Of a DNA stretch of 23,645 nucleotides, positions 1,825-16,628 are shown one piece after another. The notes beneath the pieces were generated by a model. The model was not told the DNA's origin. It saw only the letters and a list, made by a program, of their open reading frames with translations, and searched no databases. Source of the DNA: a virus. The stretch spans positions 1-23,645 of IMG/VR virus record IMGVR_UViG_3300017917_000837. One strand, given 5' to 3'. How positions within the stretch are numbered: the first letter of the stretch is position 1; the number at the start of each line of letters is the position of its first letter. The position numbers and the translations under genes were made by a program.

Positions 1825-1845
1825 GCTCATAATTACAGTATGAGC
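1825..1845 (+). promoter_or_regulatory. Stem-loop covering the start codon of radical SAM 1
   Basis: GCTCATA (1825-1831) and TATGAGC (1839-1845) are perfect reverse complements with a seven-base loop. The right arm contains the ATG of the radical SAM gene at 1840-1842, and the stem begins five bases after the nuclease stop codon. No Shine-Dalgarno sequence is visible before this ATG. In mRNA the hairpin would hide the start codon; it is followed only by a weak U-rich stretch, so a start-occluding element is more likely than a terminator. Confidence 0.5.
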
Positions 1846-2955
1846 AATTTCTATTGTGCGGCCCCCTGGCGGGGCCTGCATATCAATCCCAGAGGTGACA
1901 TAAAAACTTGTTGTGCCGGCGATCCAAATATGCTGGGCAATCTCAACGAGCAATCAATCACAGAAGTGTTACACGGACCTGTGATGCAGGATATTCGAGC
2001 AACATTACGCCGTGGCGAACCGCATGCTTACTGTTACAACTGTGTGCAGGCTGAACGCTATGGTCGTAGCGAACGTGATTGGCACAACAACCTAAATCCT
2101 GATTTTGATCCTAGCACAGTGTCCAACCTGGATCATCATCCTGTCTTAATAGATGTGCGTTGGAACACCACTTGTAATCTAAGTTGTAATTATTGTGGTG
2201 ACAAGTGTAGCTCACGGTGGGCTGCCTTAAAAGGTATACCAGTCAAGTCTGGAGCACGTCCTTACTATGAACAAGTGTGCGAATACTTAGAAGGACACAA
2301 AAAACACATCAAGGAAGTGGCACTTGTAGGCGGCGAACCACTATTGTTGCCAGAGAATGAAAGACTGCTAGATGTCATTCCCACAGATGCAATAGTTACC
2401 CTGATCACCAACGGTAGTGTTGATTTAGAATCTAATCGAATCTTTAAGAAGTTATCTCAAAGATCCCGGGTAGGTTGGTCAATCAGTTTTGACAATGTAG
2501 GCACACGTTTTGAATATGTCAGACACGGTGCTACTTGGAACCAGCTATTACACAATCTTGATCTCATACAAGACTTAATGAAGTCTGGACATTGGGGTGG
2601 CATCCATGCTGTATACAACATCTACAATGCTACACGCTTGGTAGAGTTTACAGAGTTTGCTCGCAATAGAGGATTGACTATACACTGGCAAAGCCTATAC
2701 CAACCTGATTATTTAGATCCACAACGTTTGGGTTCTACGGTCGTACATCAAGCAGAACAAGAGCGTGATCGTTTGTTAGCATCAGGTATTTGCCTACCCA
2801 ACGAAGAAGAATTTTTTAAGAACATCAAGTTTACAGCAGGCGTAGAGGACTCAAGAATGGCGTTGTATCAACACATTGAAGAAATAGAGTCTATATACCA
2901 CACAGATCAAAAAGGTATGTTTTCAAAACTTTGGCCCGAATTGACCGATAAGTAA
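1840..2955 (+). CDS. Radical SAM protein 1 with N-terminal twitch/SPASM-like cluster motif
   Basis: This 371-residue protein carries the radical SAM signature CNLSCNYC at residues 112-119, which binds the [4Fe-4S] cluster that cleaves S-adenosylmethionine, and the SAM-contacting GGEP motif in ALVGGEPLLL. Ahead of the core lies a second cysteine set, C6, C24 (or C25), C65 and C68, with the phrase CAAPWRGLHINPRGD at the start. This resembles the SPASM/twitch domain that normally follows the core but here precedes it, as in the known N-terminal-twitch radical SAM family. The substrate is unknown; relatives act on peptides, sugars and other small molecules. The start ATG at 1840 sits in a hairpin. 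The stop is six bases before the terminase gene, so the two are probably co-transcribed or share readthrough. Confidence 0.85.
   Translation: MSNFYCAAPWRGLHINPRGDIKTCCAGDPNMLGNLNEQSITEVLHGPVMQDIRATLRRGEPHAYCYNCVQAERYGRSERDWHNNLNPDFDPSTVSNLDHHPVLIDVRWNTTCNLSCNYCGDKCSSRWAALKGIPVKSGARPYYEQVCEYLEGHKKHIKEVALVGGEPLLLPENERLLDVIPTDAIVTLITNGSVDLESNRIFKKLSQRSRVGWSISFDNVGTRFEYVRHGATWNQLLHNLDLIQDLMKSGHWGGIHAVYNIYNATRLVEFTEFARNRGLTIHWQSLYQPDYLDPQRLGSTVVHQAEQERDRLLASGICLPNEEEFFKNIKFTAGVEDSRMALYQHIEEIESIYHTDQKGMFSKLWPELTDK
2947..2954 (+). promoter_or_regulatory. T4-late-type promoter-like box before terminase
   Basis: GATAAGTA overlaps the stop codon of radical SAM 1 and lies 15 bases before the terminase ATG. 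It is the left part of a 20-base string (2947-2966) that recurs with two differences at 4520-4539 before the next gene. If it acts as a late promoter, with the box centred at -10, transcription would begin about two bases before the ATG. No Shine-Dalgarno sequence is seen here. Confidence 0.4.
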
Positions 2956-2961
2956 AACACT

Positions 2962-4524
2962 ATGGCTAACGAACCCGCACTAGTTAAAACACCCTATAAG
3001 AAGCAAACATTTACTCCTGAACAACTTGATGAGTTTATGAAGTGTGCTGATCCCATCACGGGCCCGCAATACTTTATGGATCACTTTTTCTATATCCAGC
3101 ATCCTACCAAGGGCAAGATGTTGTATCATCCTTTTGAATATCAAAAACGTCTGATTGACACTTACCACAACTATCGTTTTAGTATCTCAATGATGCCGCG
3201 ACAAACAGGTAAGTCAACGTCGGCTGCAGGCTACTTGTTGTGGTATGCTATGTTTGTTCCTGATTCAACTATTCTTATTGCCGCACACAAGTATACCGGT
3301 TCACAAGAGATCATGCAACGTATTCGTTATGCCTATGAACTGTGCCCAGATCATATTCGAGCAGGTTGCACCAGTTACAACAAAGGTAACTTGGACTTTG
3401 AAAACGGATCGCGTATTGTGTCGGCTACAACAACCGAAAATACCGGTCGTGGTATGTCCATATCCTTATTATATGCTGACGAGTTTGCGTTCGTTCGACC
3501 CGGTATTGCCAAAGAATTCTGGACTTCCATAAGCCCTACATTGGCAACTGGTGGTAAAGCAATTATTACTTCAACACCCAACTCAGACGAAGATCAGTTT
3601 GCCCTGCTGTGGAAAGGCGCCAACAAGTGTGAAGATAGTTATGGCAATCCCACAGACTTGGGCATCAACGGATTCAAAGCATATCGTTCATATTGGAATG
3701 AGCATCCGGATCGTGATGAGCAATGGGCTATAGAACAACGAGCACAACTAGGCGAAGATCGTTTCCGTCGTGAGATGGGTTGCGAATTTATTATCAATGA
3801 TGAAACACTTATTTCTGCTAGTAAACTTTTAGATCTACAAGGACACGAACCTTTATACAAAACTGGGCAAGTGCGTTGGTATAGTCGTCCCAAAGCCGAC
3901 AGAATTTATGTTGTGGCACTTGACCCTAGTCTGGGTACCGGCGGTGATCCTGCGGCTATACAAGTATTTGAAGCCAACACCACAGAACAAATTGGAGAAT
4001 GGCGTCACAATCGCACACCAATTCCTGAACAGGTTAGAATTCTTGCTGATATTTGTCGACATATCAACGAAACAGTAAATGATGCGAAAAGCATTTATTT
4101 TAGTGTGGAAAACAACACCATCGGTGAAGCCGCACTTATCAGTATTGCTGAATATGGCGAAGAAAACATACAAGGTTATTTCTTAAGTGAGCCCGGTGGC
4201 GGAGGCAGTCGTAGATATCGCAAAGGTTTTAACACCAGCAACAAGCCAAAACTAGCGGCTTGTAATAAACTAAAAACTCTGATTGAATCAGGTAAAATGA
4301 AAGTTCGTAGTAGTGCCCTGGTTTCAGAGTTAAAAACTTTTGTAGCATCGGGTGTAAGTTTTGCCGCAAAACAGGGCGAAACTGATGACCTAGTTATGGC
4401 CTGTATTTTGGCTGTGCGTATGCTACAACTGCTACAAACCTATGATACTGGCATTGATAATCAGCTAAGAGATCACGGTGATGTCTTGGTTGCTCCAATG
4501 CCATTCATTGCTATGATACGATAA
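2962..4524 (+). CDS. 17: Large terminase subunit (gp17-like), DNA-packaging ATPase and nuclease
   Basis: Terminase large subunit pumps DNA into the prohead and cuts the concatemer. The 520 residues show both domains in order. ATPase: Walker A PRQTGKST at 79-86, Walker B with catalytic glutamate LLYADE at 169-174, and the coupling phrase TSTPN at 203-207. RNase H-like nuclease: first acidic residue D321 in VALDPSLGTGGD, second E383 in FSVENN, third D475/D476 in ETDD. T4 gp17 is about 610 residues, so this is a shorter version, as is common in distant T4-like phages. The ATG at 2962 lies six bases after the previous stop without a visible ribosome site. The small-terminase gene that often lies nearby is not seen in this window. 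Assignment to the gp17 family rests on motif order and the other T4-type genes here. Confidence 0.95.
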   Translation: MANEPALVKTPYKKQTFTPEQLDEFMKCADPITGPQYFMDHFFYIQHPTKGKMLYHPFEYQKRLIDTYHNYRFSISMMPRQTGKSTSAAGYLLWYAMFVPDSTILIAAHKYTGSQEIMQRIRYAYELCPDHIRAGCTSYNKGNLDFENGSRIVSATTTENTGRGMSISLLYADEFAFVRPGIAKEFWTSISPTLATGGKAIITSTPNSDEDQFALLWKGANKCEDSYGNPTDLGINGFKAYRSYWNEHPDRDEQWAIEQRAQLGEDRFRREMGCEFIINDETLISASKLLDLQGHEPLYKTGQVRWYSRPKADRIYVVALDPSLGTGGDPAAIQVFEANTTEQIGEWRHNRTPIPEQVRILADICRHINETVNDAKSIYFSVENNTIGEAALISIAEYGEENIQGYFLSEPGGGGSRRYRKGFNTSNKPKLAACNKLKTLIESGKMKVRSSALVSELKTFVASGVSFAAKQGETDDLVMACILAVRMLQLLQTYDTGIDNQLRDHGDVLVAPMPFIAMIR

Positions 4525-4527
4525 ATA
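4520..4527 (+). promoter_or_regulatory. T4-late-type promoter box before the 613-residue gene
   Basis: GATAAATA matches the T4 late promoter core (TATAAATA) at seven of eight positions and overlaps the terminase stop codon. It lies 15 bases before the next ATG, exactly the same offset as GATAAGTA before the terminase gene. With the usual T4 geometry the transcript would start about two bases before the ATG, giving an almost leaderless mRNA; no Shine-Dalgarno sequence is present. Confidence 0.5.
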
Positions 4528-4534
4528 ATACACT

Positions 4535-6376
4535 ATGGCGCAACAAACACCCGCAAAACAACTATTTGACCTATTAGTTACTAAAAACTTTGATCCTGAG
4601 CTATTGGATGTCAGTGGCAAACCGGCTCAAGATCCCAGCGAAGCTGATATTTTCAGCTTTGATTATACCACAGAAACAGGCAACGATTACGGCACTGTTG
4701 TTATCATGTTTGGCGACGACAATGATCTACAAATGTATTTTGGAGACAACATAGGTCGTGGCATGGAAGCCGAAGATAAATCAGAATGGTTTTCTTTCTT
4801 ATCACAAGTTAAAAAATTTGCTACAAAAAATTTAATGGATTTTAAACCCAAAGATTTGAACCGATTAAAATACACCATGCAGAGCATGGCAAATGTAAAA
4901 GAAAGTATATTTGAATCCTGGACAGGCACCCGAACAACAAGTTGGAACGGGCGTCCCACAGAAGCAAGACTGATGATCAAGCACAAGCGTCCCTTGGGCG
5001 AGACTGATGCCCGTTTCCGTTATGTAGAAAGTTTGTTTATTGAAACTGCCGAAGGCGAGCGTTACAAGTTACCATTTACAAAATTATCAGGTGGCCGTGC
5101 CATGGTAGAGCATATCCGTCAAGGTGGCAAGGTATGGGATGCTCGCGGTCAGCATATTACACAAATAGTAGAAGAACTAAATGTCCTCAGTCGTTTCCGT
5201 CGTGCCAGTCATGGCAAGATCTTTGAAGGCGACACCAAGGACTTGGTTGAACAAACCAATGCCTACTATGAAACAGCACAAAAGACCCTAAAGTCAATGA
5301 GCCACTCACGTGGTTATACAACATACTTTGAATCATGGAAGCCTTTGGAAATTACCGAAGAAGAAATCATGATTGAAGGTCTCAAGCATTTATTTGTAAC
5401 ACAAAGTTTAGATTCACGCATTGAAGATGCGTTACCATTACTGGCCCGTATTCAACAACAAGGAAATGCCATGAAAGAAGCAAACATATTTGAAGCTTGG
5501 GTTGATACTCTAGCTGAAGGAACCTGGGCATTACCAGACGACAAAGAAAAACAAATGAAATTGGTTGAACTCATGAGCAAAGAATTTCCAGTAGGTGCTG
5601 ATGCTACCAATGCCACAGAACAACTATATGACTTGTTAGGCGATGATGAGTTGTTTGATCAACTAGAAGCACTGGCCGACAAAGATCCAAACGCCGATTG
5701 CCGTCAAGTTGTAATGGACCGCATGCAGATGTTGGGCGATCATCCTGAAGTTCAGGCAGTATTAGATGCTGTTCAAATTGATCCTACAGCAGAAATGAAT
5801 CCAGCCGAACCAACAGATGCTGGTATGAGTGCCAATCCAGACGACGCACAAGTTCCAGAATTAGAAGAAATAAAAGACCCAGCAACACAAACAGAAGATC
5901 CAGCAGGAACTCAACAACCAACGTATCCAGAATATCAAGATGATCTGTCTTCTATTCTTAAAGCAGCTGGCGTAAACGACACAGTAGTAGCAGCTCCAGA
6001 TTACGAAGCTGAAGTCAATGAAGAAAGTCTTGAGGATGTTGAAAGCATTGGTGGTGATGCTGCCGATCAGCTTATACGTGACACAGAAGTTGACCAGCGT
6101 GGCACCGATGTTGCTGAAGATGAAGAAACTGACGAAGGTGCAGTTGGTGCTGTAGCCGGAGGTGCTTTAGGCGCATTGGCTGCCGGGCCAGTTGGCGCAG
6201 TTCGTGGCGCAATGATTGGCGATAAAATTGGCGATGCTCTTAGTTCCGACAAGGAAGAAACCGACGAAAGTCCATTAAAAGGTCAATACGGGCACAGTGG
6301 TAAGTTAAAAGCTGTAGCCGACAAACCAGACTTCCTAACACGTCTCAAAGAACTTTCAGGAATGATCCGCAACTAA
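4535..6376 (+). CDS. Unknown 613-residue acidic phage protein with FExW motifs and glycine-zipper segment
   Basis: I do not assign a function. Residues 1-310 look folded and mixed alpha/beta. Three FE(S/A)W motifs occur at 126-129, 265-268 and 319-322, two of them inside a similar context (KESIFESW and KEANIFEAW). A compact helical module follows at about 319-395 (EGTWALPDD, then LYDLLGDDELFDQLEALAD), a pattern I recall from uncharacterised proteins of large marine phages. Residues 410-530 are low-complexity, acidic and proline-rich, probably disordered. Residues 535-567 are a glycine/alanine-rich run (GAVAGGALGALAAGPVGAV) like a glycine zipper, which can insert in or associate with membranes. 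The charged C-terminus ends in LKELSGMIRN. A late-type box precedes it and the terminase gene is directly upstream, so late expression with virion genes is plausible. A virion, scaffold or ejection role is possible but unproven. Confidence 0.7.
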   Translation: MAQQTPAKQLFDLLVTKNFDPELLDVSGKPAQDPSEADIFSFDYTTETGNDYGTVVIMFGDDNDLQMYFGDNIGRGMEAEDKSEWFSFLSQVKKFATKNLMDFKPKDLNRLKYTMQSMANVKESIFESWTGTRTTSWNGRPTEARLMIKHKRPLGETDARFRYVESLFIETAEGERYKLPFTKLSGGRAMVEHIRQGGKVWDARGQHITQIVEELNVLSRFRRASHGKIFEGDTKDLVEQTNAYYETAQKTLKSMSHSRGYTTYFESWKPLEITEEEIMIEGLKHLFVTQSLDSRIEDALPLLARIQQQGNAMKEANIFEAWVDTLAEGTWALPDDKEKQMKLVELMSKEFPVGADATNATEQLYDLLGDDELFDQLEALADKDPNADCRQVVMDRMQMLGDHPEVQAVLDAVQIDPTAEMNPAEPTDAGMSANPDDAQVPELEEIKDPATQTEDPAGTQQPTYPEYQDDLSSILKAAGVNDTVVAAPDYEAEVNEESLEDVESIGGDAADQLIRDTEVDQRGTDVAEDEETDEGAVGAVAGGALGALAAGPVGAVRGAMIGDKIGDALSSDKEETDESPLKGQYGHSGKLKAVADKPDFLTRLKELSGMIRN

Positions 6377-6377
6377 C

Positions 6378-7175
6378 GTGAAGATCAATACCAACATGCC
6401 CCTGGTAGTTTTAACTTACCCGGGGCATTTTCTTCTAACCGTTTTGACTATTAGATCCTACCTGGAGTATCATACTCCTACAGAAGTTGTTGTGATTGTA
6501 GATGATCTAAGTCCACATGCTTGGTCTACCTATCTCAAGGACTGTCAAGACATGTATTGGACTACAGTAATTCCTTTTAGTCAAGTTCAAGAGTGTAAAA
6601 GTTTTAACAATGGTTGGATACGACAACAGGTAGCCAAGCTACATCTAGACAAAATTATTGACAAAGACTTTTATTTTTTTACTGACGGCGATATTGAATT
6701 TTTACACAGCGTAGATCCTACACATGTTCCTTACAGTGTGCCTTACTACAACGAAGTAACGCAACAACAAAATGACTGGGTTAAATCTGTGCTAGGCATT
6801 GAACCAGGCATACAGGTCAACAATCAGCAAGTTTGTGTTAGTAATCCTCCTTTTCGAACAGTATCGTCTGATACCTTGCGAGATCTACGTGATCATGCGG
6901 GAGAAAAACTGTTTGTTACTGGACCAGGCATGAGTGAATGGGAATTGATTGAAAATTTTAAGCACTATATCAAAGGCGAAAAACTTAATCTAATAAAGTA
7001 TGCCCCACATCAGTTAGCCGATGTCACAGCAGATCTTGATTATTTTTCGCACCAATTCTTAACCTGTTACTGCACCGACAGTGAGTTGGGTAGAGCATGG
7101 TTTGCTGACAAGATGATTTATACTTCTGATCGTATCTGGGAAATTTTATCAGGCATACACCGACAGTTTACTTAG
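6378..7175 (+). CDS. DXD glycosyltransferase-like protein (GT-A type)
   Basis: The protein of up to 265 residues resembles GT-A sugar transferases: a beta strand PLVVLTYPGHF near the start, then the metal/nucleotide-sugar motif DGD at residues 103-105 in YFFTDGDIEFLH. It also resembles uncharacterised glycosyltransferase-like families built around the same motif. The first in-frame start is GTG at 6378, one base after the previous stop; ATG at 6396 is the alternative and leaves the conserved region intact. I give the longer form but the ATG is about as likely. A strong stem-loop (6396-6428) lies in these first codons, so translation or transcription may be throttled here. The gene ends eight bases inside the converging methyltransferase gene. 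Donor and acceptor unknown. Confidence 0.65.
   Translation: MKINTNMPLVVLTYPGHFLLTVLTIRSYLEYHTPTEVVVIVDDLSPHAWSTYLKDCQDMYWTTVIPFSQVQECKSFNNGWIRQQVAKLHLDKIIDKDFYFFTDGDIEFLHSVDPTHVPYSVPYYNEVTQQQNDWVKSVLGIEPGIQVNNQQVCVSNPPFRTVSSDTLRDLRDHAGEKLFVTGPGMSEWELIENFKHYIKGEKLNLIKYAPHQLADVTADLDYFSHQFLTCYCTDSELGRAWFADKMIYTSDRIWEILSGIHRQFT
6396..6434 (+). terminator. Intrinsic-terminator-like hairpin inside the start of the glycosyltransferase gene
   Basis: ATGCCCC (6396-6402) pairs with GGGGCAT (6422-6428); after one mismatch GGTA (6404-6407) pairs with TACC (6417-6420), leaving a nine-base loop. The right arm runs into TTTTCTT (6428-6434). GC-rich stem plus U-run is the standard Rho-independent terminator form. 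It lies 20 bases after the stop of the 613-residue gene, a sensible end for the terminase transcript, yet it also encodes the first residues of the next protein. Confidence 0.65.
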
Positions 7176-7983: not shown

Positions 7984-8130
7984 AGTCTAATAGTTATCAC
8001 TTTGGCAGTATTGATCATAAATACTATTGACGAAGCAAAAGCACTAGTATATACTACACAAGTGATACAAACTTTTGACGTCACAGGCAACTTAGATCTA
8101 GAAATAGATAGGCAACATTTTATAATTTGA
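7972..8130 (+). CDS. Doubtful 52-residue ORF upstream of gp32
   Basis: An ATG at 7972 opens a 52-codon frame ending with TGA at 8128-8130, 14 bases before the gp32 start. The predicted peptide has a hydrophobic stretch (SLIVITLAVLII) followed by DEAKA, a possible signal-peptidase site, and then a polar tail with TFDVTGNLDLEID. It would fill an unusually long gap for this compact genome. Against it: no ribosome site at the ATG or at the in-frame TTG codons (8002, 8011), overlap with the start of the minus-strand methyltransferase, and a good sigma70 promoter in its middle. Probably a chance frame. Confidence 0.2.
   Translation: MFAHSLIVITLAVLIINTIDEAKALVYTTQVIQTFDVTGNLDLEIDRQHFII
8016..8023 (+). 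promoter_or_regulatory. T4-late-type box upstream of gp32
   Basis: CATAAATA matches the late core TATAAATA at seven of eight positions. It lies just before the -35 element of the sigma70-type promoter. In T4 gene 32 is read from several promoters of different classes, so a late box next to an early one would fit. The box alone is short and could be chance. Confidence 0.35.
8027..8055 (+). promoter_or_regulatory. Sigma70-type promoter for gp32
   Basis: TTGACG (8027-8032) and TATACT (8050-8055) are separated by exactly 17 bases, matching the bacterial housekeeping consensus at five of six positions each. Transcription should begin near 8062, giving a leader of about 83 bases before the gp32 ATG. 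The -10 element lies in a ten-base palindrome AGTATATACT (8046-8055), which could serve as a protein-binding site. Confidence 0.65.
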
Positions 8131-8141
8131 AAGGCAACATT
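8085..8141 (+). promoter_or_regulatory. Triple AGGCAAC repeat in gp32 leader, candidate autoregulatory operator
   Basis: AGGCAAC occurs at 8085-8091, 8110-8116 and 8132-8138, 25 and 22 bases apart; the last two extend to AGGCAACATT. The third copy includes the only ribosome-site-like string (AAAGG, 8130-8134) before the ATG at 8145. T4 gp32 represses its own translation by binding the leader of its mRNA around the ribosome site; the repeats would be a natural cooperative binding array for the same kind of control. This role is inference from position. Confidence 0.4.
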
Positions 8142-8144
8142 AAA

Positions 8145-9125
8145 ATGGCATCATTAGCAGAAATTCGCGCTCGTTTGGCCGCTAGCGAATCAAAACAAGG
8201 CGGTAACAGTTCCACAGGTGGTGACAACGCAATTTACCCACATTGGAACATGGAAGAAGGTTCTTCCGCAACACTCCGTTTCCTACCAGACGCAAATCCA
8301 AAGAATACATTCTTCTGGGTAGAACGTGCTCAAATTCGTTTACCATTTAATGGTATCAAAGGTGAGTTGGAAAGTAAACAAGTTATCGTACCAGTTCCAT
8401 GCGTGGAAATGTATGGCGACGCTTGCCCAATCTTGGCAGAAGTTCGCACTTGGTTCAAAGACAAATCCTTAGAAGAGATGGGTCGTAAGTATTGGAAGAA
8501 ACGCAGTTACATTTTCCAAGGTTTTGTTCGTGAGAATCCTTTGGCAGATGACAAGGCTCCAGCAAATCCAATCCGTCGATTCATTATTGGACCACAAATT
8601 TTCGCAACTATCAAAGGTGCGTTGATGGATCCAGAATTAGAAGAATTGCCAACAGACTTGATGCGTGGTTTGGACTTCCGTATTACTAAAACAAGTAAAG
8701 GTGGCTTTGCTGATTACAGCACAAGTAAGTGGTCTCGTAAAGAGACAGCACTGACCGAAGCTGAACAGGCAGCAATCGCTGAACATGGTTTGTTTGACTT
8801 GGCAACATTCTTGCCAAAACGCCCAGGCGAAGTAGAGTTGAAAGTTATCAAAGAGATGTTTGAAGCATCTGTTGATGGCCAAAGCTACGATACCGAGCGT
8901 TGGGGTCAATACTTCCGTCCAGCAGGTGTAGCCGCTCCGGCTTCTACAACTACAGTAGATGGTCATGGTGACGCACACGAAGTTCCTGCTCCGGCTCCTG
9001 CTGTAAGCAGTGACTTTGATGAGGAACCAGCTGTAGCAAGTGCTCCAGTAGAAGCCAAACCAGCTGCTGCCGGAACAAATGCCAACGACATTTTAGCAAT
9101 GATTCGTGCAAGACAAAAGCAGTAA
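8145..9125 (+). CDS. 32: Single-stranded DNA-binding protein (gp32-like)
   Basis: A 326-residue homologue of T4 gp32, which coats single-stranded DNA in replication, recombination and repair. The N-terminus MASLAEIRARLAA resembles the basic cooperativity region; the core follows with HWNMEEGSSATLRFLPD and the phrase CVEMYGDACPILAEV at 86-100. The last 65 residues are acidic and proline/alanine-rich (DFDEEPAVASAPVEA) and end in a helix NDILAMIRARQKQ; the acidic tail is where gp32 binds partner proteins. T4 gp32 (301 residues) holds zinc with one histidine and three cysteines; only C86 and C94 are evident here, so the zinc site may be altered or lost. A TTG at 8127 would add six residues, but ATG 8145 gives the typical start. 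The leader has its own promoter and repeats. Partners UvsX and UvsY are encoded downstream. Confidence 0.88.
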   Translation: MASLAEIRARLAASESKQGGNSSTGGDNAIYPHWNMEEGSSATLRFLPDANPKNTFFWVERAQIRLPFNGIKGELESKQVIVPVPCVEMYGDACPILAEVRTWFKDKSLEEMGRKYWKKRSYIFQGFVRENPLADDKAPANPIRRFIIGPQIFATIKGALMDPELEELPTDLMRGLDFRITKTSKGGFADYSTSKWSRKETALTEAEQAAIAEHGLFDLATFLPKRPGEVELKVIKEMFEASVDGQSYDTERWGQYFRPAGVAAPASTTTVDGHGDAHEVPAPAPAVSSDFDEEPAVASAPVEAKPAAAGTNANDILAMIRARQKQ

Positions 9126-9690
9126 TCAAAAAACTAGGGTATTACTAAATTACTATCCATGTAGTTATGGTGATACCCTAGCATCAATGTTTGGTGGAAT
9201 TGCTCCTGACTGGCGAGGGAAACTAACCCAAAGCAGTTGGGGCGATTTCAAATTTCCAACATTTTACTCTATGACCTTAGAGGAAAAAGTTGAGTGTTGG
9301 CAAAAATTTTCATTTAATCCAGTTACTTGTTGCCACAGACAACAGGGTTTTGATTTCAACGAAATAGAACCAGTCCAGGTGATAAGCATAAGAGTAAATG
9401 ATAGATCTTGGTTGCATCGTAGAGTTATTAAATTGCATTGGAATTCGTTTGAACTGAATGACACCAAGTTGGATAAAATTAGATCTCAAATGCCAGCCGA
9501 GGAACATCATAAAGTGGTTGAATTTGAATATGTCAAATGGGCCAAGGAAAACATACTGAGCAGTGATCTAGTGCTGGATTTTGAGTTGATTCATTCAGAT
9601 GAATTGGCCGGTTGGTGCCAGGATCATGGCGTCAGTTACGATCAGTCAGTGATTGATCTAATAAAACAAGATTTAAAAGATTATCAATAA
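9106..9690 (+). CDS. Unknown 194-residue protein, possibly sulfotransferase-like
   Basis: The frame is closed upstream at 9100-9102, so the first possible start is GTG at 9106, which overlaps gp32 by 20 bases; the next is ATG 9187, which would remove a conserved-looking strand VLLNYYPCSYGDTLASMFGG. That opening (strand, then a P-x-S-x-G-x-x-L turn) resembles the start of sulfotransferase-like or other P-loop-related folds, and the end (a DFELIHSDEL stretch followed by helices) recalls the same family. No firm motif is present, so I leave it unassigned. A large stem-loop (9134-9181) lies across codons 10-26. The stop overlaps the start of the next radical SAM gene (TAATG), suggesting coupled translation and a shared pathway. 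No ribosome site is seen at the GTG. Confidence 0.6.
   Translation: MQDKSSNQKTRVLLNYYPCSYGDTLASMFGGIAPDWRGKLTQSSWGDFKFPTFYSMTLEEKVECWQKFSFNPVTCCHRQQGFDFNEIEPVQVISIRVNDRSWLHRRVIKLHWNSFELNDTKLDKIRSQMPAEEHHKVVEFEYVKWAKENILSSDLVLDFELIHSDELAGWCQDHGVSYDQSVIDLIKQDLKDYQ
9134..9181 (+). repeat. Long inverted repeat just after gp32 stop
   Basis: CTAGGGTAT (9134-9142) and ATACCCTAG (9173-9181) are perfect reverse complements; with G-U pairs the stem extends five more pairs inward (9143-9147 with 9168-9172), leaving a loop of 20 bases. It begins eight bases after the gp32 stop. On the plus strand no U-run follows. On the minus strand the stem is followed by six T residues (complement of 9128-9133), the shape of a terminator for antisense transcription. 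It may instead protect the 3' end of gp32 mRNA. Confidence 0.6.
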
Positions 9691-10742
9691 TGCATTGCCC
9701 AAACCTTAAACACAATCTCAGTTGGTTTGTAAATGGTCGTTTGAAACCATGCAACAACATGGTTAACTTTCCGACCTTTTCTACTGTGCAGGAAATGCAA
9801 CAGAGTCAGCCATACCAGGATGTTGTGTCGGATCCACAAAGTCCGTATTGTCAACGGTGTTGGGACAAGGAAAGTCTGGGCATTACCAGCAAGCGACAAG
9901 CAGATTTAAAAACTCATGAAATTTATGCCAAGATTAATCCTGACTATTTGAAAATTGATGCGGCCATTGGAGTTACCTGTAATGCTGCCTGTAGAACATG
10001 TGGGCCTCCCAACAGCAGTCTTTGGCAACAGCATGAAAGAAAGTATCACGGCGTGAATTTACAAACTGTAGTCGAGGGTCATGACCTTTGGCCCACTGTA
10101 GATGCCAATCTTGATAGAATACTACAAATGGACTTTGGTGGTGGTGAACCTTGGCTAAATCAAGTTGAAGAACAAATTGCCGCACTGGAAAAATTAATTA
10201 GCCAAGGATCATCCAAACAAATAAAACTACGCTACAATACCAACGGTAGTGTTCAACCAAGAGCCCTGTTAGAAAAATTTCCCTACTTTAGATCAGTTGA
10301 AATCACACTAAGTTTAGACGATGTAGGCTCTAGATTTGAATACAATAGATATCCATTGACCTGGTCGACTGTGCTGGAAAATGTCAGTGTGTTAAAACAG
10401 ATAGCCCAAGAAAATGCTAATGTATTTTTAAAAATAAATTTTACTGTGAGTGTTTTGACTTTTTTGTATGCTGAAAGTTTTTTGACCTGGGCCAAAGACA
10501 ACAACTTGCCTGACGTCAATTGGAATATTGTGACCTTACCAGAGATCTACAGTATTAAAAGTTTGCCAGTTACTGTGCGAGAAAAACTAAATCCCGGTCA
10601 AATGTTTTATGATCTAGTGGCCAAAAGTCCTTTGCCCGATTGGCGTGAAAAATTTTTTGCTGAAACTCAACGACTTGATCAACAAAGACAACAGTCGTTC
10701 AACGACACCTTTCCAGAACTACAGGCCATAATATGCGAATAG
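9690..10742 (+). CDS. Radical SAM protein 2 with N-terminal twitch-like cysteines
   Basis: Of 350 residues, 97-104 (CNAACRTC) hold the SAM-cleaving cluster and MDFGGGEPWL the SAM-contacting GGE motif. Before the core are C3, C21, C54 and C57 (SPYCQRCWDK), the same four-cysteine layout as in three other radical SAM genes here, with an 18-residue step between the first two. This N-terminal set probably binds an auxiliary iron-sulfur cluster that holds or oxidises the substrate. The phrase SLDDVGSRFEYNRYP closely matches ISFDNVGTRFEYVRHG in radical SAM 1, so the two are likely paralogues. ATG 9690 overlaps the preceding stop; the 3' end overlaps the SDR gene by ten bases. Reaction unknown. Confidence 0.82.
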   Translation: MHCPNLKHNLSWFVNGRLKPCNNMVNFPTFSTVQEMQQSQPYQDVVSDPQSPYCQRCWDKESLGITSKRQADLKTHEIYAKINPDYLKIDAAIGVTCNAACRTCGPPNSSLWQQHERKYHGVNLQTVVEGHDLWPTVDANLDRILQMDFGGGEPWLNQVEEQIAALEKLISQGSSKQIKLRYNTNGSVQPRALLEKFPYFRSVEITLSLDDVGSRFEYNRYPLTWSTVLENVSVLKQIAQENANVFLKINFTVSVLTFLYAESFLTWAKDNNLPDVNWNIVTLPEIYSIKSLPVTVREKLNPGQMFYDLVAKSPLPDWREKFFAETQRLDQQRQQSFNDTFPELQAIICE

Positions 10743-11275
10743 CAATCACAGGACACACTGCTGGTATTGGTCGTGCCTTGGCCGAAGCCTACCGTGGCAA
10801 TGAGATTGTTGGCATAAGCAAACGCGAAGGCAACAACATAAGAAACACGCCCAAGGTTGCTGACATGATCGAACCTTGCGATGTGTTTATTAATAATGCT
10901 CAAGCTGGATATGCACAAACCGAATTGCTGTTTGAAATGGCCCAACGCTGGCAAGGAACAGGCAAAACAATCCTAGTGATATCCACAATGTTGGCACAGG
11001 CACCAGTAAATCATTTGCCAGGTCTTGATATGGATCAGTATCGCGTTCAAAAGGTTGCTCTAGAAGAAGCTGTGCATCAACTACGCAATAGACGCTTGGG
11101 TATCAAGATTGTTTTAGTTCGTCCGGGCAATGTTGCTACCAGTGCGGACAAAACAGTTCCGCCAGCAGCCGATGTAGATAATTGGGCACGAGTGTTAGTT
11201 GCTACATTACAAATGGCCCAGGCCAACAACTTATTCATCACCGACATAAGTTTAGGACCCAACAATGAATCATAA
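10733..11275 (+). CDS. Short-chain dehydrogenase/reductase (SDR), compact
   Basis: SDR enzymes oxidise or reduce alcohols, ketones or sugars with NAD(P). The 180-residue protein begins with the nucleotide-binding motif TGHTAGIG (residues 6-13), has the structural NNA at 54-56, the catalytic serine at S84 in LVIST, and the YxxxK pair Y103/K107, followed by the PG motif (RPGNVATS). All catalytic residues are present although the usual length is about 250, so the substrate-binding C-terminus is cut short. It overlaps the radical SAM genes on both sides (10 and 11 bases), a strong sign of one operon and of joint action on the same metabolite, for example nucleotide-sugar conversion. That substrate is a guess. 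Confidence 0.85.
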   Translation: MRIAITGHTAGIGRALAEAYRGNEIVGISKREGNNIRNTPKVADMIEPCDVFINNAQAGYAQTELLFEMAQRWQGTGKTILVISTMLAQAPVNHLPGLDMDQYRVQKVALEEAVHQLRNRRLGIKIVLVRPGNVATSADKTVPPAADVDNWARVLVATLQMAQANNLFITDISLGPNNES

Positions 11276-12401
11276 AGACATGTTGACCAATCCGGCGTTT
11301 TGCCCAATCCCTTGGACAGGATTGATGTATAACTTTGATGGCGCAGTCAAAAATTGTATTCGTAGTGCCACTACCTTGGGCAACATCAAAGACAATACCA
11401 TAGAAGATATTGTTGGCAACAATTCAAATGTAGCAAGACAAGCCATGATATTGGGACGACAATTTCCTAGTAATTGTAAACCATGCCACGATTTAGAAAT
11501 AGACAAAAAGAATTTTGACATTATCAGTGATCGTATTTTCTACATAAGAGAACTAAAACAAGTTCCACTGGAAACTTATCGTCCCAACAATTTTGATCTA
11601 CAGACTGTGGATGTGCGCTGGACCAATCTTTGTAATTTTGCCTGCGTGTATTGTTCGCCACAGTTTAGCAGTAAGTGGGCAGCCGAACTCAAGGTCATAC
11701 AACAAGTTCCTACTGAACAACAACAAGAAACGTTCAAACAATACATTTTTGATCGGGCCAAGAATCTCAAACATGTGTATATGGCCGGTGGCGAACCCTT
11801 GTTGATGAAAGAAAATTTAGAGTTATTGGATCGACTTGATCCAAACGTAAACCTACGCATCAACACAAACCTAAGCAAAGTAGACACACAGGTATTTGAT
11901 CGTATTTGTCAATTTAAAAATGTTCACTGGACCATAAGCATTGAATCCTGCAGTAACGAATTTGAATACATAAGGCACGGCGGTGCTTGGCAAGACTTTG
12001 TTGACAATTTAATGATTATACAAAAACTTGATCATAAAATAAGTTTTAACATGTTGCACTTGGTATTAAATCATCTCAGTATTTTTGACTGTATAGATTA
12101 TTTGAAATACATAGGATTTCATAACAATAGTTTTGTTGCCGGACCCTTGCTAACTCCCAAACATCTCAACATCTTGAACTTGCCAGAAACAGCTATCAAT
12201 GAAGTGCGCACGGCATTAAAATTACGACTCAGTCAAAAACCTGGATACTTATTAGAAAACAGTTATCAAAACATGTTGGCCTATCTTGATCAACCATTTG
12301 ACAAAAACTTATCAAACACATTCAAGCAACTAGAAATCATGGATCAACGTCGCGGCTTAGACAGCAAAAAAATATTCAAGGACTTGTATAGATATGAGTG
12401 A
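11265..12401 (+). CDS. Radical SAM protein 3 with N-terminal twitch-like cysteines
   Basis: The 378-residue protein has the core CNFACVYC at 123-130 and VYMAGGEPLL as the SAM-contacting motif. The N-terminal auxiliary set is C13, C31, C71 and C74, in the phrases FCPIPWTGLMYNFDG and CKPCHDLE. Further phrases shared with radical SAM 1 are VRWTNLCN, FSSKWAA and FEYIRHGGAW, so these are close paralogues. The start ATG 11265 lies in the end of the SDR gene (11-base overlap); ATG 11280 is an alternative. The gene ends eight bases inside radical SAM 4, continuing the coupled series. Target unknown; relatives of the SPASM/twitch group modify peptides, sugars and alcohols. Confidence 0.85.
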   Translation: MNHKDMLTNPAFCPIPWTGLMYNFDGAVKNCIRSATTLGNIKDNTIEDIVGNNSNVARQAMILGRQFPSNCKPCHDLEIDKKNFDIISDRIFYIRELKQVPLETYRPNNFDLQTVDVRWTNLCNFACVYCSPQFSSKWAAELKVIQQVPTEQQQETFKQYIFDRAKNLKHVYMAGGEPLLMKENLELLDRLDPNVNLRINTNLSKVDTQVFDRICQFKNVHWTISIESCSNEFEYIRHGGAWQDFVDNLMIIQKLDHKISFNMLHLVLNHLSIFDCIDYLKYIGFHNNSFVAGPLLTPKHLNILNLPETAINEVRTALKLRLSQKPGYLLENSYQNMLAYLDQPFDKNLSNTFKQLEIMDQRRGLDSKKIFKDLYRYE

Positions 12402-13557
12402 AGTTAACTCTATAGCATTTGCGGTCAACCCAACCGACATACCCAGCTTTCTGCTGGACTGGGAATTAACCAAGTTATGCAACCTTGATTGCTCGTATTG
12501 TCCATCGGGTATTGACGGCGGACATGATAATTCAACTGCTCATCCACCTAAAGAACAATGTTTACAGGCCATTGATTTCATGTATGAGTATGTGGACTTG
12601 TATATGCAACATCGTCGACCGAATCAGCGCAAAGTTATCCTAAATGTCTACGGCGGGGAAAGCCTGTTTCATCCTGACATTGTTGAAATACTTGAAGCCT
12701 GTAGGTCTCGGTATGAAAAGTATAAAGATCGCTGGTATCTAACTATTACCTGCACTACCAATGCTGTAGTAGGGCCAAATCTTTGGTCTCGTATTGTGCC
12801 ATTGATTGACCAGTTTAGCATGAGTTACCATGCAGAAAATTTACCCAAGCAAAAACAACAATACAAAGACAATTTATTGTATCTCAAAGAACACGGCAAG
12901 CGATTCAAATCAATCATTATGATGCACAATGATCCTGAGTGCTGGCTTGAATGCAAGAACATTGTTGAGTTTTGTAAAACACACGACATTGACTATCTAG
13001 CCAAGGCCATAGATTTTTCCAGCTCAGACTGGGCCTATACCACAGAACAATTTGCTGAATTAAAAGAATTTTGGGTAAGCAAAACACGACCTCTACACCG
13101 ACTTGAGTATAGTAAAAGTATAGACGCCATTGGCAAGGAAGAAAAAACCATTAGCCTTGATCAAGGACGAGCCTGTTGTGGCGGCAGACAAATGAGTTTA
13201 AACGGGGATCTTAAAAGCAGTGTAAGTTTTGTTCCACGTCAAGGGTTTGAAGGATGGTCATGCAGTGTAAATTGGTTTTTTCTATTTGTTCAACAACTTA
13301 CAGGAGCGGTATATACCAACAAGGATTGTCGCACCAGCACCACCGGACTGGTTGAACCTTTGGGCTATTTGTCCGATTCAGACAAGATAATCAAGAATCT
13401 CCAAACGCAACTTGAAACCAAAAGTATGCCTGTAATTAAATGTGTTAAAAAATTCTGTATGTGCGGATTTTGCGCACCAAAAGCCGAAGATCCCAAAGAG
13501 TTTATGAAGTTAATCAAAAGGCATGTGCCTGATGATGTTTTTGTTGCTAATTTATAA
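12394..13557 (+). CDS. Radical SAM protein 4 with C-terminal cysteine region
   Basis: This 387-residue enzyme differs from the other four. The core CNLDCSYC is already at residues 29-36, so no N-terminal auxiliary domain precedes it, and the SAM motif is in NVYGGESLF. Instead cysteines cluster in the second half: GRACCGGRQMSLNGDL, which is the SPASM-type loop, then NKDCRTS, and CVKKFCMCGFCAPK near the end. This is the normal radical SAM-SPASM order, with enough cysteines for one or two extra clusters. The gene starts inside the end of radical SAM 3 and is followed by a 54-base gap before uvsX. Being the only member of a different architecture, it may do a different step from the other four. 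Confidence 0.8.
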   Translation: MSEVNSIAFAVNPTDIPSFLLDWELTKLCNLDCSYCPSGIDGGHDNSTAHPPKEQCLQAIDFMYEYVDLYMQHRRPNQRKVILNVYGGESLFHPDIVEILEACRSRYEKYKDRWYLTITCTTNAVVGPNLWSRIVPLIDQFSMSYHAENLPKQKQQYKDNLLYLKEHGKRFKSIIMMHNDPECWLECKNIVEFCKTHDIDYLAKAIDFSSSDWAYTTEQFAELKEFWVSKTRPLHRLEYSKSIDAIGKEEKTISLDQGRACCGGRQMSLNGDLKSSVSFVPRQGFEGWSCSVNWFFLFVQQLTGAVYTNKDCRTSTTGLVEPLGYLSDSDKIIKNLQTQLETKSMPVIKCVKKFCMCGFCAPKAEDPKEFMKLIKRHVPDDVFVANL

Positions 13558-13576
13558 TTAGTGTGTTAAACTTAGA

Positions 13577-13584
13577 TATAAGTA
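13577..13584 (+). promoter_or_regulatory. Possible phage promoter box before uvsX
   Basis: TATAAGTA lies 28 bases before the uvsX start in the 54-base gap 13558-13611 and differs by one base from the T4 late core. The same A-to-G change is seen in the box before terminase. A good ribosome site AAGGAAG follows at 13600-13606. No convincing sigma70 pair was found in the gap, and an AT-only six-base inverted repeat (13547-13561) is too weak to call a terminator. Confidence 0.3.
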
Positions 13585-13611
13585 TCGTAAAATTTAGACA
13601 AGGAAGATAAC

Positions 13612-14670
13612 ATGGCAAAACCATTTGACGTATCAAAATTCCGCAAGGATATCACTAAGAGCATCGACGGTCTTAGTATTGGATTTAACGATCCAACAGA
13701 CTGGATCAGCACAGGCAACTTTGCGCTAAACTATCTTATCTCAGGAGACTTTAACAAAGGTATTCCGCTAGGTAAGGTCACTGTGTTTGCCGGAGAATCT
13801 GGCGCAGGTAAATCATATATCTGCTCTGGTAACATTGTGAAGAACGCACAAGAGCAAGGTATCTTTGTTATCTTGATTGATACAGAAAACGCACTAGATG
13901 AAGAATGGCTTCGTGCTTTAGGTGTAGATACCAGCGATAGCAAATTGCTTAAACTGAACATGGCCATGATCGACGATGTGGGCAAGACTATTGCTACATT
14001 TATGAGTGACTATAAAGCCTTGCCTGATGGCGAACGTCCTAAGGTCCTGTTTGTTATTGACTCGTTGGGTATGTTGTTGACTCCTACTGACGTTAATCAG
14101 TTCGAAGCAGGTGACATGAAAGGTGACATGGGTCGTAAGCCTAAAGCACTAACAGCATTGGTTCGTAACTGTGTCAACATGTTTGGTAGCTTTAATGTAG
14201 GCCTAGTAGCAACCAACCACACTTATGCATCACAGGACATGTTTGATCCAGATGACAAGATCTCAGGTGGCCAAGGCTTTATCTATGCTAGTTCTATCGT
14301 AGTAGCTATGAAGAAAATGAAGTTGAAAGAAGATGAAGATGGCAACAAGATCTCCGACGTCATGGGTATCCGTGCTGGTTGTAAAGTAATGAAAACTCGT
14401 TATGCTAAACCGTTTGAAGGCATGCAGGTTAAGATTCCTTATGAAACAGGTATGAACCCATACAGTGGCCTAACTGACTTGGCCGAGAAAAAAGGCCTGC
14501 TCAAGAAAGATGGTAATCGTTTAATGTTTGTAACCAGTGATGGTGAAATTATCAAACAGTTCCGCAAAGCATGGGAACAAAATGAAGATGGCTGTTTAGA
14601 TAAAGTTATGGCAGACTTTGCTAATCAGAAAGAAACGGTAAGTACTGAAGAGACAGCCACGGAGGAATAA
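13612..14670 (+). CDS. uvsX: UvsX, RecA-like strand-exchange recombinase
   Basis: UvsX pairs homologous DNA and drives recombination-dependent replication in T4-like phages. The 352 residues contain the RecA core: Walker A GESGAGKS at 61-68, the catalytic-glutamate region LIDTENALDEEW at 88-99, Walker B VLFVID at 145-150, and the loop region KGDMGRKPKALTALVR followed by GLVATNHTY. The N-terminus includes DWISTGNFALNYLISGDFNKGIP, typical of phage RecA. The length is close to T4 UvsX (about 390). The start is secured by AAGGAAG six bases upstream of the ATG. The end carries a strong ribosome site GGAGGAA (14661-14667) for the next small gene. Mediator uvsY lies two genes on, split off by a radical SAM gene. 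Confidence 0.95.
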   Translation: MAKPFDVSKFRKDITKSIDGLSIGFNDPTDWISTGNFALNYLISGDFNKGIPLGKVTVFAGESGAGKSYICSGNIVKNAQEQGIFVILIDTENALDEEWLRALGVDTSDSKLLKLNMAMIDDVGKTIATFMSDYKALPDGERPKVLFVIDSLGMLLTPTDVNQFEAGDMKGDMGRKPKALTALVRNCVNMFGSFNVGLVATNHTYASQDMFDPDDKISGGQGFIYASSIVVAMKKMKLKEDEDGNKISDVMGIRAGCKVMKTRYAKPFEGMQVKIPYETGMNPYSGLTDLAEKKGLLKKDGNRLMFVTSDGEIIKQFRKAWEQNEDGCLDKVMADFANQKETVSTEETATEE

Positions 14671-14672
14671 GA

Positions 14673-14933
14673 ATGTCAGTAGAATTAGCCAAGGAAATTT
14701 GGGACGAACTCAAGCGTTATGTAAACACAGTTGACAAAGATGACGCCGCAGAAACCCTAGTATCAGTCTTAGTTGACAACGATTGTGCCGCAGACGATAT
14801 CAAGTCAGTATTTAAATCTGATCCAGCAGTCAAAGCTGCATTAGCGCATTACCTCAAAGATCATGAGGAAGCTGATGACGACGAAGACTACGACGAAGAA
14901 GATTTTGAATACGACGAGGACGACGACTATTGA
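14673..14933 (+). CDS. Small acidic protein downstream of uvsX
   Basis: I do not recognise the 86-residue product. Residues 1-60 look helical (ELAKEIWDELKRYV, then SVFKSDPAVKAALAHYLKDH) and the last 25 residues are almost all Asp, Glu and Tyr. Such tails often mimic DNA or bind basic partner proteins. It starts two bases after the uvsX stop with the ribosome site GGAGGAA inside uvsX, so it is translated together with uvsX and may be a helper of recombination; that is inference from position. Its stop overlaps the next ATG (TGATG). Confidence 0.75.
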   Translation: MSVELAKEIWDELKRYVNTVDKDDAAETLVSVLVDNDCAADDIKSVFKSDPAVKAALAHYLKDHEEADDDEDYDEEDFEYDEDDDY

Positions 14934-16186
14934 TGACCCCCAAGTTTTTTCCAATAAAAACGGAAACTGCTTGCCAACTTAAATGGACGTGGAGCACAAT
15001 TAGTCTATACAATGGAATAACAAAATCTTGTCATCGGGTTGACAGCGACCCTGTTACCGTTGACACTTTTGATAACTTCCATAATACTCCAAAAAAATTA
15101 GCAGACAGAAAGCTCATGTTAGAAGGACAATGGCCTTCTGGCGGATGCGAATACTGCCAAAAAATAGAACAAGCAGGTGGATCAAGTGATCGTATGTTTC
15201 ATTTGTCTATACCAGACATGGCACCACCTGAGCTTGACAGCAACCCTACTGCTATACAAGTAACCCCAAAAATTGTTGAAGTTTATTTTGACAATGTTTG
15301 TAACATGAGTTGCCTGTATTGTTGGGACGGATTCAGCAGTCAAATACAACAAGAAAATGTCAAGTTTGGTCGTTTTGAAAAACACGGAGTGGTCATTGAC
15401 AACTATGCTAACCGTGTTGAAAATTTTTCTAGTTTAACTGATAAATTTTGGGAGTGGATGCATACAAACAGTCGCACCTTGAAAAGACTGCATGTGTTGG
15501 GCGGCGAACCATTTTTTCAAAAACAATTTGATCATTGTTTAGAATTTTTCAATGAACACGCTAATCCTGAACTTGAACTTAATGTTATAAGCAATCTCAA
15601 AGTTTCAAATCGTCGATTACGAGACTATATTGAAAAAATTAAAAACTTGATTGACAACCGACATATAGCTCGATTTGATTTGACTGCCAGCATAGACTGT
15701 TTTGGACCTGAACAAGAGTATGTGAGATTTGGAATTGATCTTGATCAATGGCGAGAAAATTTTGAATATCTAGTTGCGCAACCCTGGATAACACTCAATA
15801 TCAATCAGACTTTGTCCGGCTTGACTATGAAAACAGTTCCAGACCTGTTAAAATACATAAATCAGTTTAGAAAATCACGCGAAATTGGACACTATTTTTC
15901 TGCCACAGTTATGACTCACAAGTTCTTACACCCAGAAATTTTTGGTCCAAACTATTTTGACAACACCTTTGAAGAAATTTATTTGAACATGCCCACAGAA
16001 ACTTGGCAACAAAAAGAAGCAATTAAATACATGCAGGGAATACAAGCACAGTTGAATGCCGGACAACGTGACCAGGCATTGATCAATCAACTGGCAATTT
16101 TCTTAACTGAAATAGATCGGCGTAGAAATCTCAATTGGCAAAACATTTTTCCTTGGTTGGTAAGAGAGGCACAACATGTGGTATAG
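14933..16186 (+). CDS. Radical SAM protein 5 with N-terminal twitch-like cysteines
   Basis: Start ATG 14933 overlaps the stop of the small acidic gene; a TTG at 14930 is not needed. Of 417 residues, the core CNMSCLYC is at 123-130 and the SAM motif in HVLGGEPFF. The N-terminal auxiliary set is C14, C33, C72 and C75 (GGCEYCQK), matching the spacing of radical SAM proteins 1-3 within one residue. It is longer and more diverged than those, with an insertion after the core (about residues 140-180). It sits between uvsX and uvsY, which in T4 relatives belong to one recombination group, and ends 11 bases inside uvsY, so it is translated with them. No link to recombination can be read from the protein itself; it may simply be an accessory insertion. 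Confidence 0.82.
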   Translation: MTPKFFPIKTETACQLKWTWSTISLYNGITKSCHRVDSDPVTVDTFDNFHNTPKKLADRKLMLEGQWPSGGCEYCQKIEQAGGSSDRMFHLSIPDMAPPELDSNPTAIQVTPKIVEVYFDNVCNMSCLYCWDGFSSQIQQENVKFGRFEKHGVVIDNYANRVENFSSLTDKFWEWMHTNSRTLKRLHVLGGEPFFQKQFDHCLEFFNEHANPELELNVISNLKVSNRRLRDYIEKIKNLIDNRHIARFDLTASIDCFGPEQEYVRFGIDLDQWRENFEYLVAQPWITLNINQTLSGLTMKTVPDLLKYINQFRKSREIGHYFSATVMTHKFLHPEIFGPNYFDNTFEEIYLNMPTETWQQKEAIKYMQGIQAQLNAGQRDQALINQLAIFLTEIDRRRNLNWQNIFPWLVREAQHVV

Positions 16187-16628
16187 TCGAGTAACAAGTG
16201 ACCTAAGTAACATTCCAGACTTTATTGCTCACTATGAACGTGAGCTTGATGAAGCCAAGAAAGATTGTCGCATTGGTGGGCTGGTAGAAAAAAACATTAC
16301 AGCCTTGCCAGGCATCACAGAACACAGGTTTAATCAGTTACAAGAAATTGAAGCCATCTTGAATCACCTTAACATACAACTACGCAAGATTCGACGCAGA
16401 CACTTTCAAAAGTATCTAGAAGGCTATGCTCGTGCCTTGACCAGTAGAGATGCTGAAAAGTATGTGGACGGTGAAGACGAAGTGATCGACTTTGAAACTA
16501 TTATTAACGAAGTGGCCTTGTTGCGTAACAAGTGGTTGGGCATCCTAAAAGGCCTAGACAGTAAACAGTGGCAAATGGGTCATATTGTTCGTTTACGCAC
16601 AGCCGGAATGGAAGATATCACAGTATGA
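16176..16628 (+). CDS. uvsY: Probable UvsY recombination mediator
   Basis: T4 UvsY (137 residues) loads UvsX onto gp32-coated DNA. This 150-residue protein has the same size, no membrane segment, and a similar plan: a helical N-terminal half with a basic patch (LRKIRRRHFQKYLEGYARAL, 69-88), an acidic linker, and a final helix pair (RNKWLGILKGLDSKQWQMGHIVRLRTAG) like the UvsY C-terminus, where a K-x-x-x-S-R-x-(F/W)-Q-(I/M) pattern is usual. The position close after uvsX supports it. Sequence resemblance is weak, as is normal in this family, so a profile search is needed. Ribosome site AGAGAGG lies just upstream of ATG 16176, inside radical SAM 5. Confidence 0.65.
   Translation: MWYSRVTSDLSNIPDFIAHYERELDEAKKDCRIGGLVEKNITALPGITEHRFNQLQEIEAILNHLNIQLRKIRRRHFQKYLEGYARALTSRDAEKYVDGEDEVIDFETIINEVALLRNKWLGILKGLDSKQWQMGHIVRLRTAGMEDITV

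Follow-up and report, generated by a model that had tools for sequence, protein, structure and literature searches.

The T4-like Campylobacter phages CP220 and CPt10 encode 11 and 12 radical SAM (rSAM) proteins, respectively, with an exchangeable cluster of five rSAM genes and an amidinotransferase gene, an arrangement that has been termed highly unusual (Timms et al. 2010, PMC2853527). In pelagimyophages, the rSAM gene cassettes of host-recognition clusters differ between related myophages (PMC7029224). Phage rSAM genes are usually recorded singly, as auxiliary genes, whereas in the phages considered here they form a dispersed multigene family. The DNA analysed (the window), a 23,645-base fragment taken from IMG/VR, derives from a T4-like jumbo phage, as judged by its gene content: T4-type TerL, gp32, UvsX and UvsY are all encoded (Table 1), TerL is 53% identical to that of PA5oct and 50% to that of Phosso, and related phage contigs are 338–347 kb long.

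The resemblance of the window's five rSAM genes, R1–R5, to those of CP220/CPt10 is one of organisation, not of enzyme family. All six CP220 rSAMs scanned fall short of the cut-off for the curated family NF033640 (NCBIfam N_Twi_rSAM, twitch domain-containing radical SAM protein; 170 bits, whole protein), which R1, R2, R3 and R5 exceed. The CP220/CPt10-type module is loosely resembled by tandem arrays of N_Twi_rSAM genes in relatives of the window but not by the window itself, in which no amidinotransferase was found. The likeness to pelagimyophages lies in the variation of rSAM cassettes between related phages. The N_Twi_rSAM expansion is real and has a partial precedent, with a different rSAM family, in CP220/CPt10.

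Table 1. Radical SAM genes of the window, their cassette partner, and the anchor and intervening genes
Feature	Coordinates	Strand	Remarks
R1, N_Twi_rSAM upstream of terL	1840..2955	+	371 aa; NF033640 202.6 bits; PF13186 SPASM residues 6-68; PF04055
Terminase large subunit (T4 gp17-like), anchor	2962..4524	+	PHROG terminase E=5e-113; 53% to PA5oct
gp32-like single-strand DNA-binding protein, anchor	8127..9125	+	phrog_1192 E=3e-64
194-aa ORF	9106..9690	+	true start probably near 9139; between gp32 and R2
R2, N_Twi_rSAM, opens R2-SDR-R3 cassette (R2w variant)	9690..10742	+	350 aa; NF033640 213.9 bits
SDR-like NAD(P)-binding oxidoreductase, cassette middle gene	10733..11275	+	PF01370 above cut-off; NCBIfam SDR matches weak
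R3, N_Twi_rSAM, closes cassette	11265..12401	+	378 aa; NF033640 235.9 bits; AlphaFold2 pLDDT 84
R4, rSAM of another family	12394..13557	+	387 aa; PF04055 29.5 bits (at cut-off); NF033640 29.8 bits
UvsX/RecA-like recombinase, anchor	13612..14670	+	phrog_97 E=2e-68
Small acidic ORF	14673..14933	+	between uvsX and uvsY; kept with or without R5
R5, N_Twi_rSAM between acidic ORF and uvsY	14933..16186	+	417 aa; NF033640 227.1 bits
UvsY-like recombination mediator, anchor	16176..16628	+	phrog_231 E=6e-15

The five genes and the architecture of their products

The rSAM genes that an earlier note on this DNA had placed at 1840, 9690, 11265, 12394 and 14933 are present there as intact ORFs, each encoding the CxxxCxxC and GGE motifs that it had reported. 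R1, R2, R3 and R5 match NF033640 over nearly the full model length; R4, which matches over the barrel region only and falls below the cut-off, lacks the N-terminal auxiliary domain and has a Cys-rich C terminus. With the Pfam Radical_SAM profile, R1 and R3 score above, R4 at, and R2 and R5 below the cut-off, so that R2 and R5 would go undetected were this criterion used alone. The gathering of five rSAM genes is not a matter of chance, since four belong to one curated family, of which near-complete relatives have 10 and 16 members.

R1 and terL are separated by 6 nt, and R4 and uvsX by 54 nt. Six further junctions are overlaps (194-aa ORF/R2, 1 nt; R2/SDR, 10 nt; SDR/R3, 11 nt; R3/R4, 8 nt; acidic ORF/R5, 1 nt; R5/uvsY, 11 nt). 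They speak for translational coupling along R2-SDR-R3-R4 and along acidic ORF-R5-uvsY; the earlier note had proposed such coupling for most of the rSAM genes. The R5 start is taken as the ATG inside a TGATG overlap, with an in-frame TTG at 14930. The neighbours agree with those given in the earlier note (terL for R1, uvsX for R4 and uvsY for R5), with the 194-aa ORF between gp32 and R2. This ORF had no family match in Pfam, NCBIfam and other profile searches and, among the loci listed, is present only alongside the R2w cassette variant (the window and L159, L160 and L162); kinship with P-loop-like proteins near other rSAM copies was rejected, at an hhalign probability of ~1%. The acidic ORF, of which homologues were found in 86 of the loci listed, gave no match in family profile searches.

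In R1, R2, R3 and R5 a four-cysteine domain of the SPASM/twitch type lies in front of the rSAM barrel. PF13186 precedes the barrel in both R1 and R3 (residues 13-74 in the latter), which consequently depart from the classical SPASM/twitch arrangement, with the auxiliary domain C-terminal to the barrel. Among 20 aligned proteins C13, C31, C71, C74 and C123/C127/C130 (R3 numbering) are invariant, and every clade retains the four N-terminal cysteines, CxxxCxxC and GGE, with the exception of one truncated R2p row. All four N_Twi_rSAM proteins of the window keep the cysteines for a predicted SAM-cleaving cluster and a predicted N-terminal auxiliary cluster. The first 74 positions of a profile of 20 diverse members match the C-terminal auxiliary domain of BtrN (residues 184-257; E=5.6e-7), and the remainder matches the barrels of YydG, SkfB, anSME and viperin; in BtrN, a 2-deoxy-scyllo-inosamine dehydrogenase, the auxiliary domain follows the barrel, whereas in N_Twi_rSAM proteins it comes before.

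The AlphaFold2 model of R3 has full-length matches only among viral models, mostly of uncultured Caudovirales phages (TM by query length 0.7-0.85; a KVP40 model gave a TM of 0.62). PDB entries cover the barrel at best, with TM by query length of up to 0.39, the nearest solved structures to the barrel including the peptide-modifying SkfB, SuiB and YydG, the sugar-nucleotide enzyme BlsE, and viperins. The family is present in public databases and, to judge from the predicted model, its domain order seems to be without a close solved structure.

The viperin-like barrel (E=1e-10 to 1e-5) and the location amid genes for recombination and packaging, which would tie expression to that of gp32, uvsX and uvsY, would fit a role in nucleotide or DNA chemistry, i.e. 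hypermodified bases or viperin-like nucleotide products. This is, however, quite improbable. The window's proteins score 24.8-40.4 bits with the viperin profile NF038283 against a cut-off of 180, paralogues also occur beside clpP and near a fibre-like gene, and the family is found in many Bdellovibrionota, some outside a phage-like context. The similarity to prokaryotic and eukaryotic viperins is one of barrels; viperins are not known to have an N-terminal auxiliary cluster domain. Coupling to gp32, uvsX and uvsY would provide for co-expression and need not imply action on DNA.

Genome position, modularity and selection

Scans with R1, R3 and R4 yielded 175 loci (from the best 80 of 160 R1 matches and the best 80 of 268 R3 matches) in a comparison set of about 180 related IMG/VR stretches overall; the frequencies of these three baits are accordingly biased, R2, SDR and R5 not having served as bait. 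When 374 family proteins from the fetched loci and larger relatives are placed in a tree, their clades follow genome position, with one clade per site. Among the matches listed, the R1 clade (88 proteins, nearly all before terL) and its sister R1b (17) occupy the terL site, R2p (84), R2w (4, including the window) and R3 (93) the gp32-uvsX interval, and R5 (25) and R5b (11) mostly the uvsX-uvsY interval. R2w is the sister of R2p at the identical site, and R5-clade members occur elsewhere in some genomes, e.g. adjoining a carbamoyltransferase gene in the 347-kb relative G002. R1, R1b and R3 group together with support, which points to duplication within the lineage. A tree with relatives, suggested in the earlier note, hence finds orthologues of the window's genes at the same loci in related phages, except for R4, which lies outside the family and is rare (15 viral contigs). 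These relationships show each N_Twi_rSAM paralogue to be an old orthologue, maintained by vertical descent at a core-gene junction of its own.

The R2-SDR-R3 cassette behaves as a real unit that is practically all-or-nothing. Of 39 gp32-uvsX intervals reached through R1, and so unbiased for the cassette, 33 have no rSAM gene, 4 have the full trio, 2 have another single rSAM gene and none has a partial trio; among loci fetched through R3, the trio is complete in 62 of 63. The R5 site is filled in 27 of 77 loci and elsewhere closed, the gap between the neighbouring genes then ranging mostly from a few bases to some tens. Occupancy of the two sites is independent (10/40 versus 8/27; Fisher p = 0.78). 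Among 41 stretches spanning terL to uvsY, some of which duplicate one contig, the window alone has its exact set, although two (L226 and L233) bear a comparable load of R1, the cassette and a different R5-site gene. By these patterns the modules, i.e. R1 (sometimes with R1b), R2-SDR-R3 and R5, are gained or lost separately.

Such independence, together with the single occurrence of the exact set, led us to reject the joint five-gene pathway put forward in the earlier note: R2-SDR-R3 recurs jointly in other phages, but all five genes together do not recur in the other stretches. The window rSAMs are, on this comparative evidence, real and functional-looking genes, not one five-step pathway. The SDR gene, one of the additional partners claimed, does belong with R2 and R3, whereas the two methyltransferase genes are unlinked and were rejected as rSAM partners; among the loci listed, MT2 follows uvsY in 57 whether or not rSAM genes are present, and MT1 is at its window position in the window only. 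The all-or-nothing cassette offers a small, testable system.

Selection on the family is, by dN/dS, strongly purifying (R3, 0.072; R2p, 0.077; R1, 0.095; R5, 0.129; SDR, 0.107), close in strength to that on core recombination genes (UvsX, 0.060; gp32, 0.106); estimates for R2w, R5b and R4 are based on 1-9 pairs only. SDR homologues have both TGxxxG[IL][GA] and YxxxK in 96 of 98 cases. These values bear on the alternative, also raised in the earlier note, that the genes are neutral or selfish paralogues inserting repeatedly at gene junctions. Presence or absence at defined junctions would be consistent with such insertion, as would the homing-endonuclease-like genes (SegE GIY-YIG, NUMOD3) that lie within two genes of two rSAM copies in G002. 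But a single clade per site without random mixing, seven invariant cysteines and other catalytic residues likewise unchanged, and dN/dS of about 0.07-0.13 make it very improbable.

Candidate chemistry in the near-complete relatives

The window samples an N_Twi_rSAM expansion that extends through a lineage of T4-like jumbo phages, which are known from metagenome contigs. Family members are spread across the genome in both G001 (343 kb; 10 genes) and G002 (16 genes), with further sites at the junction of genes for a gp47-like phosphoesterase and a gp46-like AAA ATPase (one copy) and next to clpP (others). G001-G005 have in common a tandem array of five additional paralogues, TA-TE, two of which are fused in one genome, situated near a fibre-like gene and neighboured by genes for a carbamoyltransferase (PF02543/PF16861), GDSL-type hydrolases and glycosyltransferase-like proteins. 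Most array neighbours had no match in PHROGs and Pfam; the glycosyltransferase-like assignment of family c2 comes from a Pfam GT2 match of its bacterial homologue. Some arrays include an amidinotransferase-like protein related to that of CP220 (24% identity, E=2e-9, in G002). IscU (PF01592) and IscA (PF01521) are encoded in both G001 and G002, and this expenditure of coding capacity on Fe-S cluster assembly implies a real demand.

The BtrN-like domain, the match to BlsE, the carbamoyl-, amidino- and glycosyltransferase neighbours and the phage Fe-S assembly genes together suggest, as the favoured but tentative reading, that the modules may tailor, via radical steps, a glycan or a small polar molecule belonging to the virion or to the host surface. 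Each module would contribute one such step, in which hydrogen abstraction leads to oxidation, epimerisation or deoxygenation; for the cassette, the final part of the reaction would fall to the SDR and its NAD(P)H chemistry. Pairs of an rSAM enzyme and a reductase finish reactions likewise in aminoglycoside biosynthesis. The IscU and IscA of the two near-complete relatives could help to load the Fe-S clusters.

Also in favour are the glycosyltransferase-like genes of the window itself, of which three or more are supported, the variable rSAM cassettes of pelagimyophage host-recognition clusters and a gene order shared with a Bdellovibrionales chromosome (below). Several observations run counter to a glycan product: none of the window rSAM genes has a fibre gene next to it; the sugar-related context is supplied by the tandem arrays and by scattered glycosyltransferase genes, and the latter are frequent in jumbo phages in any case; at 180 aa the SDR is small, and its family scores are weak; and the nearest barrel structures include those of the peptide-modifying SkfB, SuiB and YydG.

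The enzymes might instead modify peptides or proteins, the target being a protein of the virion or fibre, some RiPP-like peptide or a neighbouring gene's product; this remains a serious rival, if a rather unlikely one. SPASM/twitch enzymes frequently act on peptides, the best structural or profile matches include SkfB, SuiB and YydG, and a fibre-like gene is found close to the tandem arrays. The cassette interval is, however, tight (about 3.2 kb, three genes), with no space for a separate conserved precursor, and loci with and without an R5-site rSAM gene are not told apart by any single residue in UvsX, the acidic ORF product or UvsY, the best residue correlation with occupancy of that site in these three proteins being 0.35-0.50, uncorrected for relatedness. 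On this count, these neighbouring proteins were rejected as substrates.

General auxiliary metabolism, by which host metabolism would be boosted or redirected in infection, as proposed for CP220/CPt10, with their 11-12 rSAMs and interchangeable module of five rSAMs and an amidinotransferase (PMC2853527), would also be consistent with phage-encoded IscU and IscA. It is nonetheless improbable, in that no curated metabolic rSAM equivalog of NCBIfam was matched at its cut-off and the family is absent above 1e-30 from most of the Pseudomonadota and Bacteroidota sampled. A literature search did not find a function for the NF033640 family. In isolate phages, tblastn at 1e-5 gave no match for R1, R2, R4 or R5 and, for R3, matches in Vibrio phages only (22-25% identity), so that isolate phages were rejected as the source of the window rSAMs. 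One isolate, Vibrio phage K566, does carry three N_Twi_rSAM-like genes at short distances from one another.

Sharing with predatory Bdellovibrionota

The 20-member profile was too divergent for a collection scan, and an alignment of five members was used instead. Matches in GTDB are mostly in Bdellovibrionota, of which 35 of 114 genomes sampled carry the family, often in multiple copies; for comparison, the phylum to which a Hyphomicrobiales genome belongs gave 3 of 199, and that of Agaribacillus 1 of 148 (seeds included in each count). The enrichment in lineages of predatory bacteria is an unexpected lead on the purpose of the chemistry. Bdellovibrionota clusters differ from those of the phages in being chromosomal, with terL and uvsX mostly absent as neighbours, and the R2-SDR-R3 cassette was not seen among the bacterial loci fetched. 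The link is one of gene sharing and not a host call.

Bdellovibrio bacteriovorus, the model predator, uses phage-tail-fibre-like adhesins (PMC10769870); a link between these and N_Twi_rSAM enzymes would be hypothetical. An unlikely but wider proposal is that T4-like jumbo phages and predatory Bdellovibrionota share a large, hitherto unexplored N_Twi_rSAM toolbox for tailoring the fibre-type adhesins or surface glycans with which they recognise other bacteria, the phages running up to 16 paralogues along with IscU and IscA. Eight family members lie in a single cluster in a member of the Bacteriovoracaceae (L237), including relatives of the phage tandem paralogues, and in the tree phage TA, TB, TC and TE group with copies from this cluster and their relatives. 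On a Bdellovibrionales contig with housekeeping genes (L272) the order is fibre-like gene, small ORF, c5, c5, small ORF, c2, N_Twi_rSAM, which is that of the phages, at about 25-44% identity.

Tandem array and fused genes

Both near-complete relatives of the window phage, G001 and G002, share with comparison loci L219, L224 and L228 a conserved array in which five additional N_Twi_rSAM (NF033640) paralogues, TA-TE, lie in tandem; the neighbours of this array include a carbamoyltransferase gene and, in some cases only, an amidinotransferase-like gene. Fused forms also occur (see table). In G002, SegE-type GIY-YIG and NUMOD3 endonuclease-like genes (194863-195291 and 317133-317750) lie at most two genes from N_Twi_rSAM genes.

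Coordinates of arrays, fusions and other genes
Feature	Location	Positions	Detail
Tandem array	G001	50294-59920	five paralogues
Tandem array	G002	143327-150949	five paralogues
Tandem array	L219	6127-12810	five paralogues
Fused gene	L224	9659-12214	two rSAMs, single 851-aa ORF
Fused gene	L182	10294-12222	TA copy plus additional N-terminal domain
Glycosyltransferase-like genes	window	1-1080, 6378-7175, 17399-18070, 20369-21163	matches: Glycos_transf_1, DUF6492, GT8, weak GT2
IscU, IscA	G002 (L212)	291406-292102	phage-encoded Fe-S assembly
IscU, IscA	G001 (L192/L193)	about 259777-260778	phage-encoded Fe-S assembly

Glycan-related and Fe-S assembly genes

The presence of several glycosyltransferase-like genes within the 24 kb of the window supports a glycan theme. 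Downstream of the IscU/IscA genes of G002, two genes away, is an N_Twi_rSAM gene.

Isolate phage and bacterial counterpart

Vibrio phage K566, an isolate, has three N_Twi_rSAM-like genes near one another (L277, 11965-16367), two scoring above the family cut-off and the third, at 154 bits, slightly under it. The gene order of a Bdellovibrionales chromosomal island (L272, 12323-17389) matches that of the phage fibre-like/glycosyltransferase-like/N_Twi_rSAM region.
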